Shown: positions 20,060 through 23,045 of the stretch, in pieces
Position numbering within the stretch: the stretch's first letter is position 1
Layout: every line of letters begins with the position of its first letter
Source of the DNA: Treponema sp.
Lineage (GTDB): Bacteria > Spirochaetota > Spirochaetia > Treponematales > Breznakiellaceae
DNA: 34,317 bases
NCBI GenBank assembly: GCA_031256195.1
Contig: JAIRRB010000026.1
Location: 1 to 34,317 of the forward strand
Reading direction: 5' to 3'
Notes under the pieces: generated by a model
What the model saw: the letters and a program-made list of their open reading frames with translations, nothing else
Database searches by the model: none
What the model was told of the DNA's origin: nothing
Program-made: the position numbers and the translations under genes

Positions 20060-21564
20060 AAAAAGTGTACCTATTTAACATTCCGCTGCTTATTATAATG
20101 ACAATATTCGCTTCCTGTTCCAGCGCACCCAAAAATCAGGGAACTCCTGCTCCGGAAGCGCCCCAGAGCGCAGAGCGGCCGGAGCGTATGCCAGTTTCCG
20201 AAGAAGTGGTTGAGGCTGATAGTGTAGACACCCCGGTTACCGAAATAGAAGAAGTCAAAAGAGAAGAAATCGCAGAAGTTATAGAAGAAATCGAAGAAAT
20301 GGTTGATGAAGAACCTGTTCTGGCGGATGCGGAAGAGGAGCCCCCGGTAGAAATTGTTGAGCCGGAGCCTCCGGTACTGGCCATTGTTCCGGAACCGGAG
20401 CCGCCGCAAGCGCCGCCGCGGGCAATCGAACCGCCGCCGCCGGCAAGACCTGTTCCCGCTCCCAGGCCGGAGACGCCACGGGTAACCGTTCCTCCTCCTC
20501 CGGCAGCGCCTCCCCCTCCTCCTGTCTTGCCGCCCGTTGAAGAAGAAAAGCCGTCGGCAGCGGAAGAACCTCCTGTCATAGTCCAGGAACCGCCGCCGCG
20601 CATTATACCCGAACTGCCCAATCCCACGCCGGGTATCAGCAGCCGGCAGGATGCAATATTGCCTATGGTTTTTTCCCGTATGGTGCGCGCCACCGTGGGG
20701 CAGTTGGTTGAAGTTCCTTTCCGGGGAACCGGCTGGGTGTATTTGGGTGAGGCAGGCGCACAGCGGGGTATTGTTTACGATTCCCGCAGGCTCGAACCTG
20801 AGGGGCAGAGTTTTATTTTCAGAACCGAGCGGACAGGCGAATATGCGCTGAAATTCTACCGGCAGGATTTTATCCGTGATTTTATTATCAATGATTATGT
20901 ACAGGTGATTGTCGGCGCGCCTTCCGAAACTGCCGGGACAGGCTGGTTCAACCCGCCGGTTGACCGGGGCCGGGTAATTGCTGAACCGCGCTGGCCCAGT
21001 CCGCTTGCGGAAGCCCAGGCCATCAGAGCGGATAATCGTCTGACCCAGCCAGACGTACCGGCAGCCATCGGCAAACCAGAAGGCACTACCGCGGACGCTC
21101 CGGTATCCGCAGCGCCGGTAAGACCATCGGTAGCCCCGCCGGTTCAGCAGCCGCCGGCCTCGCCGCCAACTGTGCCGCCAGCCTCGCTGCCGACTCCATC
21201 AGCAGTTCCACCGGCATCTTCGCCTCCGGCTTTACCAAATACATCTCAAAACGCTGCTCCGGAATCGCCGGTGTACCTTGATCCCGCAGTATATCTGGAA
21301 AAGGCACAAGAGGAATTTGAAGCAGGCCGTGTAGCCTCAGCGATTTCCTTCCTCGACCAGTTTTGTGAACATTACCCTTCGGGAACTGATGAAGTGTGGT
21401 GGCTCTACGGCCAGTTCTACGAGGCGAACAGCCCCAGCCGGAACATCCTTGCCGCCCTGAACTCCTACCGCCGTCTGGTACAGGAATATCCCCAGAGCAG
21501 TCGCTTTGACGACGCCCGCAAAAGAATTGCCTATTTGCAAAGGTATTACATAAATATTAATTAA
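20056..21564 (+). CDS. Pro/Glu-rich lipoprotein with C-terminal TPR-like repeats
   Basis: The 502-residue product starts at GTG 20056, overlapping the previous stop. The leader MKKVYLFNIPLLIIMTIFAS followed by Cys is a lipoprotein signal. Residues ~45-190 are low complexity, first Glu/Val-rich then dominated by proline; a second Pro/Ala-rich stretch lies at ~340-410. Between them a compact segment (~195-300: MVRATVGQLVEVPFRGTGWVYLGE, TGEYALKFYRQDF) looks like a small beta domain. The end (~415-502) has TPR-like helices (YLEKAQEEFEAGRVASAISFL; NSYRRLVQEYPQSSRFDDARKRI) like YbgF/BamD-type tails. Extended Pro-rich linkers commonly span the periplasm or peptidoglycan, so a scaffold linking membrane and wall is plausible but unproven. 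Confidence 0.75.
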   Translation: MKKVYLFNIPLLIIMTIFASCSSAPKNQGTPAPEAPQSAERPERMPVSEEVVEADSVDTPVTEIEEVKREEIAEVIEEIEEMVDEEPVLADAEEEPPVEIVEPEPPVLAIVPEPEPPQAPPRAIEPPPPARPVPAPRPETPRVTVPPPPAAPPPPPVLPPVEEEKPSAAEEPPVIVQEPPPRIIPELPNPTPGISSRQDAILPMVFSRMVRATVGQLVEVPFRGTGWVYLGEAGAQRGIVYDSRRLEPEGQSFIFRTERTGEYALKFYRQDFIRDFIINDYVQVIVGAPSETAGTGWFNPPVDRGRVIAEPRWPSPLAEAQAIRADNRLTQPDVPAAIGKPEGTTADAPVSAAPVRPSVAPPVQQPPASPPTVPPASLPTPSAVPPASSPPALPNTSQNAAPESPVYLDPAVYLEKAQEEFEAGRVASAISFLDQFCEHYPSGTDEVWWLYGQFYEANSPSRNILAALNSYRRLVQEYPQSSRFDDARKRIAYLQRYYININ

Positions 21565-21585
21565 CAATGCCCCCTGCCGATACAT

Positions 21586-21644
21586 CTCCATTTTACCCTT
21601 GAAAAATGTAGATATTACTCCATTTTACCCTTGAAAAATGTAGA
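21586..21644. repeat. 27-bp direct repeat pair, candidate operator of the AAA gene
   Basis: Two identical 27-bp copies (21586-21612 and 21618-21644) lie 32 bp apart in the 101-bp gap. Each contains an internal inverted repeat, CATTTT and AAAATG, around an 8-nt centre. The second copy includes the -35 hexamer of the gene at 21666, placing a bound protein on the promoter. Three turns of helix separate the copies, so both face the same side. Confidence 0.8.
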
Positions 21645-21659
21645 GGCTACTGTTAAAAT
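21631..21659 (+). promoter_or_regulatory. Promoter of AAA/DUF4143 gene, predicted leaderless
   Basis: TTGAAA (21631-21636), 17 bp and TAAAAT (21654-21659) preceded by TGT (extended -10) predict transcription starting at 21666, the A of the ATG. There is no ribosome site. Confidence 0.7.
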
Positions 21660-21665
21660 ATACCT

Positions 21666-22970
21666 ATGAAGCGCATTGTCTACCACGATTTATTGGTTTG
21701 GAAGGTCTCATCAAACAGAAAACCCCTGCTGTTGCTGGGCGCCCGGCAGGTTGGCAAAACCTGGCTTATGGAAGAATTTGGCAAGAATGAATATAAAAAT
21801 GTTGTATATCTCAATTTTGAAAAGCAGCCCATGTTATCAACCTATTTTGATGATGATTTAAGTCCTGTAAATATTCTTAAAAGTCTGGAACAGCATTTTA
21901 ACACAACAATAGAAGCGGATAACACTCTTCTTATTTTTGATGAAGTGCAGGAGTCCGGACATGCGTTAAATTCGCTCAAATATTTTTGTGAGGAGGCGCC
22001 GCAATACCACATTATGGCGGCGGGCAGTTTTCTGGGCGTTTCCATGCACGGTAGTTTCCCTGTCGGCAAAGTTGACCGCATTACCCTTTATCCTTTTTCT
22101 TTTTACGAGTTTTTGGAAGGTATTGGTAAAGAACGTTATGTAGAAGCGATTAAAAGGCAAGACTTTAACTTAATTCGCGCTACATCGGGCGATTATCAAA
22201 AATTCCTTAAAACATATTTTTTTGCCGGCGGTATGCCAAGGGCGGTTGCCGCTTATGCCGAGCGGGAAAATTTGAGGGAAGTCAGGGCAATACAAAACGA
22301 TATTTTGGCAGATTACCGGGATGATTTTTCAAAACATATAACAGCGGTGAACATACCAAAAGTGGAAATGATTTGGAATGCCATTCCCCGCCACCTCTCC
22401 AAAGAAAAAAAGAAATTCGTATACAAGGAGCTTAAATCAGGCGCACGGGCATACGCATACGAGGATGCGATGAATTGGCTGTTTAATACGCGCCTTGTCT
22501 ACAAAATTGTCCGTACGGAAGAAAACAAATTACCGTTGGCAAGCTATGCGAACGAAGGGGTTTTTAAGTTATATATGCTGGACATAGGGCTTTTAGGCGC
22601 AAAAGCAGAGCTTGATGTAACCACGGCGCTTGAGTCCAATAATGAACTTTTTGGCATTTTCAACGGCGCCATGATGGAACAATATGTTATGCAGGAACTT
22701 AAAGCCGCCGGTTTTACACCTTATTACTGGGGCAGGGAAAAAGGCGCCGCGGAGGTGGATTTTGTTGTGCAATGGCGCAATGAGATTGTCCCTGTAGAAG
22801 TCAAGGCAGGACTCCGCACAAAATCCAAAAGCCTTGATGTGTACAGGGGTTTGTATCATCCCGCACATACTGTCCGCACCACATTAAAAAATTTCGGTAT
22901 AAATGATGGTGTATATTCAGTGCCTCTTTATATGATAGCTGATTTTTCTGATTTGATGCACGTCAATTAA
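21666..22970 (+). CDS. AAA-family ATPase with DUF4143 C-terminal domain
   Basis: The 434-residue protein has Walker A GARQVGKT (25-32), Walker B LLIFDEVQ (88-95) and a sensor-like MAAGSFLGV. It belongs to the abundant AAA_14/DUF4143 group. Its C-terminus shows a PD-(D/E)XK nuclease-like core: E363 and D365 in AEVDFVV, then E378 and K380 in PVEVKAG. Biological roles of this family are largely unknown; members are patchily distributed and often multicopy, suggesting a mobile or defence-related history. The gene stands alone, is richer in A/T than its neighbours and sits behind a private repeat/promoter unit, all consistent with acquisition by transfer. The Walker A lysine is intact. Confidence 0.88.
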   Translation: MKRIVYHDLLVWKVSSNRKPLLLLGARQVGKTWLMEEFGKNEYKNVVYLNFEKQPMLSTYFDDDLSPVNILKSLEQHFNTTIEADNTLLIFDEVQESGHALNSLKYFCEEAPQYHIMAAGSFLGVSMHGSFPVGKVDRITLYPFSFYEFLEGIGKERYVEAIKRQDFNLIRATSGDYQKFLKTYFFAGGMPRAVAAYAERENLREVRAIQNDILADYRDDFSKHITAVNIPKVEMIWNAIPRHLSKEKKKFVYKELKSGARAYAYEDAMNWLFNTRLVYKIVRTEENKLPLASYANEGVFKLYMLDIGLLGAKAELDVTTALESNNELFGIFNGAMMEQYVMQELKAAGFTPYYWGREKGAAEVDFVVQWRNEIVPVEVKAGLRTKSKSLDVYRGLYHPAHTVRTTLKNFGINDGVYSVPLYMIADFSDLMHVN

Positions 22971-23045
22971 TTTCGGGGGTGTCCTATAAAGAATTTTTAC
23001 CACCGTTTCTCAAATTGAGCATTGAGTTTTATGGACAGAATATGG

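Follow-up and report, generated by a model that had tools for sequence, protein, structure and literature searches.

Archaeal Orc1/Cdc6 initiators have repeated dyads, the origin recognition boxes, near the initiator's own gene, and a second DNA contact of these proteins is located in the AAA+ domain. Autorepressed toxin-antitoxin and restriction-control operators have palindromic repeats over the promoter, and the protein that binds them is the potentially harmful product of that promoter. Autoregulation through an operator is well known as such; for the family of ATPases with a DUF4143 domain, which includes the defence candidate PDC-S01, a search of mostly open-access journal papers found no description of an operator or a mechanism. 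The mycobacterial regulator IniR has an ATPase domain that was modelled on SSO1545, an archaeal AAA+ ATPase (PMC5760070). One report describes PDC-S01 as an unvalidated defence candidate with no known mechanism and ranks it fourth in frequency among the defence-type genes of prokaryotes (PMC12988326).

The locus presented here lies in a stretch of 34,317 nucleotides from a Treponema sp. draft genome (contig JAIRRB010000026.1), hereafter the window. It carries a PDC-S01 gene preceded by two identical dyad-containing repeats, the second of which overlaps the promoter. Taken together, the evidence makes it probable, at roughly 75%, that these repeats are a private operator: the ATPase itself would bind the 27-bp copies via its winged helix and repress its own promoter.

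The repeat pair and the promoter

A repeat search of the window found CTCCATTTTACCCTTGAAAAATGTAGA as two exact 27-bp copies, 32 bp apart from start to start. Both the identical copies with this period and the CATTTT/AAAATG dyad inside each of them agree with the earlier note on this DNA (Table 1). For the 25-mer core, the window has two occurrences, compared to 0.00 expected from 100 shuffles. Elsewhere in the source assembly (a 2.47-Mb draft of 249 contigs, 81% complete) it has no match with up to three mismatches, and the reversed control gave 0 matches. The operator is private to the gene within its genome, with two matches in 2.47 Mb and both of them here. The direct-repeat score upstream of the gene was 29, and the maximum of 40 dinucleotide shuffles was 11.

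The earlier note proposed to see whether the identical 27-mer precedes other DUF4143 genes. It was found at none of them, neither in the genome nor in a search of 84,980 genomes; the arrangement is common instead. The literal 27-mer is absent there because the sequence is particular to each gene or clade, and the operator is therefore more private, not less. The sole exact match of a 21-mer in the 84,980 genomes lies within a Dyadobacter ORF resembling a pseudouridine synthase and was taken as chance.

The operator sites overlap the core promoter of the gene, with TTGAAA inside copy 2. The sequence bears out the proposal that copy 2 supplies the −35 of an extended −10 promoter. With only 6 nt between the −10 hexamer and the ATG, the transcript is predicted to be leaderless and to start at the ATG. 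The position of the −35 is typical of the family: of the 50 relatives that have a recognisable promoter, 43 carry it inside the last copy, and 22 of these promoters are leaderless-like. Several relatives of the window gene have CCCCC or CCNTG in the upstream copies and CCCTTG at the same place in the last copy, as if this copy had been adapted to act as a −35.

Table 1. Coordinates of the features at the ATPase locus, given as positions in the window.
Feature	Position	Strand	Basis or remark
Block of operators, gene and ~55 bp	21564..23025	+	Replaced by ~720 bp of unrelated DNA in the syntenic position of G009
Operator copy 1 (27 bp)	21586..21612	+	Inner dyad CATTTT-N8-AAAATG at 21589-21608; unique in genome
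Operator copy 2 (27 bp)	21618..21644	+	Dyad at 21621-21640; overlaps the −35; unique in genome
−35 hexamer TTGAAA	21631..21636	+	Dyad centre of copy 2
Extended −10 TG-T-TAAAAT	21651..21659	+	Hexamer TAAAAT at 21654-21659; 17-bp spacer; ATG 6 nt on
AAA_14-DUF4143 ATPase gene (434 aa), PADLOC PDC-S01	21666..22970	+	Domain and profile matches
Walker A GARQVGKT, residues 25-32	21738..21761	+	Nearly invariant in alignment A4
Winged-helix domain, residues 230-304	22353..22577	+	AF2 model
Predicted recognition helix, residues 262-274	22449..22487	+	AF2 model and alignment to the mainstream family
PD-(D/E)XK-type nuclease signature E363, D365 ... E378, K380	22752..22805	+	Alignment

The ATPase

The protein matched AAA_14 (PF13173, E 1.5e-26, 93.3 bits with a cut-off of 27) and DUF4143 (PF13635, E 2e-33, 115.8 bits with a cut-off of 28.1). 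Among the PADLOC models, the PDC-S01 profile covers residues 1-427 of 434 (E 3.9e-162). The relatives tested that carry a different type of operator match the PDC-S01 models as well. The gene is a candidate for a single-gene phage-defence system, with protection as a prediction.

An AF2 model from the lone sequence had a pLDDT of 37, and an alignment of 28 sequences was used instead (pLDDT 90.4, pTM 0.91). This model has three parts: the AAA+ core, the winged helix and, at the C-terminus, a nuclease-like region. The winged-helix fold of the middle domain is given by the order of the secondary structures as well as by the model, with helices at residues 230-245 and 262-274 and strands at 278-284 and 295-304. 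Ala-262 corresponds in the alignment to the base-coding position in the shorter, mainstream DUF4143 ATPases described below. The C-terminal part is a putative PD-(D/E)XK nuclease: all four residues of the signature are invariant in 28 of 28 aligned proteins, and DNA cleavage is predicted from them.

The closest solved folds are PAB2304 (2QEN, Z 16.7) and SSO1545 (2FNA, Z 15.5), both for residues 1-315. Further fold matches were DNA-bound Cdc6/Orc1 and NLR-type STAND ATPases. Relatives by sequence of the window protein were not found among solved structures, and a search of viral contigs with the single window protein gave no relatives.

Repeat arrays at homologous genes

Homologues were collected by a protein search of 60 related genomes. 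Start codons were assigned by rule, 200 bp upstream of each gene were read, and a direct repeat was considered significant if the best repeat scored above all 40 dinucleotide shuffles. This applied to 67 of 89 homologue upstreams. The periods were strongly restricted: 32-34 bp in 59 cases and 65/66 bp in seven, with one exception. The remaining 22 upstreams had no significant repeat, in part because contigs or ORFs were cut; some carry single dyads instead. As a control, the upstreams of 80 other genes were analysed. Ten were flagged and five had a period of the 32-34 or 65-66-bp type, comprising the window gene itself, two marginal cases and two high-scoring upstreams, apparently those of neighbours with an ATPase array in common.

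The letters of the repeats vary with the protein clade, i.e. CATTTTNCCCTTGAAAAATG, CATTTATTGGTTGCAATAAATG, CACCTTTTTCCNTTGAAAAAGGTG, GTTTTTGCCAAGGAAAAAAC, TTGCCTTTTCGTGCAAATT, GCCTTGTATTTTTGACA and others. Diverged copies retain the dyads and the period, and some arrays hold up to five copies. By eye, 33-bp-like arrays were seen again in distant relatives on viral contigs.

Operator similarity follows the protein. For 61 full-length homologues, operator similarity and protein identity were correlated (Mantel rho 0.28, p 0.0005), and similarity was high only above 65% protein identity (mean 26.5 versus ~8). Operators of paralogues in the same genome were no more alike than those of cross-genome pairs at equal protein identity (p 0.57), which argues against a common trans regulator. 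Genome G030 has six paralogues with six unrelated arrays. A clade pattern gave 20 matches in 40 genomes of the genus and 0 with the reversed control; 18 of the 20 were located directly before DUF4143 genes and the other two form one solo array in genome G022. A second, shorter pattern had nine matches, six before ATPase genes, one near a gene remnant and two without an assignment, with one match in the control. Pattern matches mostly before ATPase genes and unrelated arrays at paralogues argue against one regulator for all copies.

The solo array (L331, G022:C22:14954-15009) consists of two copies of the TTATTGGTT type without an ATPase gene behind. It is flanked by two ORFs, one small and helix-turn-helix-like, the other a convergent response-regulator ORF, and is possibly the remnant of a lost gene. 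At G008:C8:49890-50207, an operator-like repeat unit is followed by a fragment matching the ATPase C-terminus only (residues 371-431), apparently a decayed unit.

Palindromes and shorter repeats in distant lineages

The shorter mainstream DUF4143 ATPases of the same phylum had no 33-bp direct-repeat array in a first set (0/28). Following this result, palindromes were found. The last 90 bp before the gene had a significant palindrome in 63 of 106 mainstream genes, against 11 of 104 in a control stretch further upstream, and 41 of 57 further mainstream genes had a palindrome as well. Most are 35-37 bp long, with arms that differ gene by gene. At DUF4143 genes without a palindrome, direct repeats of 21-23 bp are frequent; each of the three other DUF4143 genes in the genome of the window has its own. 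Other bacteria provided examples on viral-contig loci and plasmids, e.g. of Allochromatium and Roseivivax. In all three layouts, the sites are spaced near whole helical turns.

Direct repeats with a 22/23-bp period were seen at further DUF4143 promoters (L248, L258, L171, L229, L230 and L003). L258 is on a plasmid of Roseivivax sp. THAF197b, where a gene annotated as a restriction endonuclease shares a few bases with the DUF4143 ATPase gene.

Covariation of recognition helix and operator

In the palindrome group, the recognition helix (LGISVKTVKSWISILE) had the top partial correlation with operator similarity in a sliding-window analysis with overall identity removed. The helix residue following G-I-S ranked third of 342 columns. 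In the discovery set, a histidine at this position pairs with an ATTG half-site (11/14 versus 3/56). A tree built without the helix contained ten independent pairs differing in the histidine; the half-site changed in the same way in about six of them and in the opposite way in none, with a tree-aware p of ~0.03 (median) for this set.

The residue-base rule began as an observation by eye and was then written down before its test on 57 new genes. Histidine again occurred with ATTG (7/8 versus 3/35, p 2.8e-5) and glutamate or aspartate with ATC (4/5 versus 4/38, p 0.0026); these Fisher p values are optimistic because related genes are treated as independent. A swap occurs naturally in one close pair, in which L199 has Val with AAATTT and L200 has His with AAATTG. 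Outside the discovery set, a TTTCAATTGGTCG repeat of the 22/23-bp-period type is paired with the helix motif NHVT, which fits the His-ATTG rule.

The window's own subfamily gave a different picture from the palindrome group, which is the source of the clean residue-base evidence. Helix windows ranked 10th of 141 in a phased test, behind residues 7-35 and 133-152, and a cruder sliding-window covariation had no peak in the window family. It is the covariation that points to operator binding by the winged helix. Operator letters change together with the DNA-reading helix of the protein, and this suggests that each protein controls its own gene.

The N-terminal residues 7-35 (nt 21684-21770), running through the Walker A region, were the best-covarying windows in the window subfamily. 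Residues ~121-152 (nt 22026-22121) of the ATPase domain, partly flexible with a pLDDT of 61 at residues 121-130, covary with the operator in both subfamilies. By analogy with the initiator-specific motif of Orc1/Cdc6, they are a possible candidate for a second DNA contact.

Flanks and mobility of the unit

In genome G009 of the same genus, both neighbours of the window gene are kept at 86-91% identity, and the block from the operators to just behind the gene is replaced. Homologues that are 70-74% identical share no neighbour genes within ~1.5 kb of flank. With the block replaced as a whole and the flanks unshared, the array travels with its gene. Neither a target-site duplication nor terminal repeats were found at the block ends (21564/23025) in the single comparison with G009, where the site is not cleanly empty. 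The idea that repeat and gene are mobile as a unit therefore stands in one part: they come and go as one block. A target-site duplication or another sign of self-mobility was not seen, and self-mobility of the unit is weakly supported.

At the site of the window unit, G009 encodes an unrelated minus-strand ORF of 131 aa from its ATG (L129, G009:C84:27446-28227). An assignment of this ORF to DUF2335 was dropped as it had no Pfam match. The position may be a site of variable cargo.

Models of regulation

The private operator with autoregulation, a reading of the earlier note, is favoured by the recurring arrangement, the protein-linked divergence of the repeats and, in the palindrome group, the covariation of helix and operator. 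The ATPase, as a dimer or oligomer, would read both 27-bp copies through its winged helix. Copies 32-33 bp apart would present one face of the helix, and several ATPase molecules could bind together and cooperatively. Bound to the last copy, which holds the −35, the ATPase would shut off its own leaderless promoter; the position of this copy over the −35 favours occlusion. Release from the operator may depend on ATP or a signal. Family members would have diverged to their own operators, enabling several paralogues per cell to regulate themselves without cross-talk. We infer the binding itself, autorepression as opposed to activation, cooperativity and the ATP- or signal-dependent release.

An array may instead serve as an activator site or as an assembly platform, with an Orc1/Cdc6-like ATPase oligomer nucleating at its own locus. 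The fold likeness to DNA-bound Cdc6/Orc1 and STAND ATPases, the spacings of 32/33 and 21-23 bp that keep the copies in helical phase, the arrays with up to five copies and the flexible stretch ~121-152 covarying with the operator in both groups fit such a platform. It is nevertheless unlikely: the −35 hexamer usually lies under the last copy, which favours occlusion, and neither a replication function nor a partner gene was seen.

The replaced block in G009, the lack of shared neighbours among 70-74% identical relatives, the gene-less array in G022 and the invariant nuclease signature could alternatively reflect a selfish mobile unit. The nuclease would then recognise or target the repeats, in homing or transposition, and the promoter overlap would be secondary. 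However, the same facts are accounted for if a defence-like gene was transferred horizontally in the ordinary way, together with its promoter. Repeats are present on the promoter side only, with the last copy over the −35, and not at both ends; a target-site duplication was not found and the genome has no further copies to serve as targets. These observations make the selfish unit quite unlikely.

Dyads repeated at a promoter are a common mark of ordinary regulators. A separate transcription factor common to the cell could bind the repeats and run the ATPase genes as a regulon. It would have to recognise unrelated operators at the paralogues of one genome, no regulator gene travels with the unit, and the operator letters covary with the recognition helix of the ATPase itself in the mainstream family. 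A shared factor is therefore improbable. An ordinary, functionless tandem duplication would suffice for just two copies, as short duplications do occur, but it is hardly credible with the same geometry in other sequence at dozens of homologues, far above control genes, and with dyads and period kept in diverged copies.

Private operators that covary with the helix of their own ATPase provide a predicted DNA target for each of thousands of orphan genes. These targets make binding and autoregulation of PDC-S01 members directly testable. The family would amount to a large natural collection of protein-operator pairs that are orthogonal to each other, and private operators would explain how many paralogues coexist in one genome. 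A more speculative extension, which we regard as rather doubtful, takes the PDC-S01 ATPase-nucleases as orthogonal self-anchored sensors. An Orc1/Cdc6- or STAND-like oligomer would sit on its private phased array and stay silent while the array is occupied; nuclease and own promoter would fire upon displacement or titration, for example by invading DNA.

Comparison with known systems

PAB2304 and SSO1545 are closest to the window protein in fold, but the alignments end at residue ~315, before the C-terminal nuclease-like part, with an identity of only 14-15%. IniR activates other genes and, unlike the window protein, has MalT-like and SdiA-like domains and no nuclease. Archaeal Orc1/Cdc6 (2QBY, 2V1U) combine AAA+ and winged-helix domains on DNA, as in the fold of the window protein, although the fold match is weaker (TM 0.29). 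In contrast to the origin recognition boxes, for the sites of the window family no origin function is known; they are located on the promoter and differ for every paralogue. Compared to toxin-antitoxin and restriction-control systems, the operators of the window family are very strongly diversified, and a single gene encodes one chain with an ATPase, a DNA reader and a nuclease signature.
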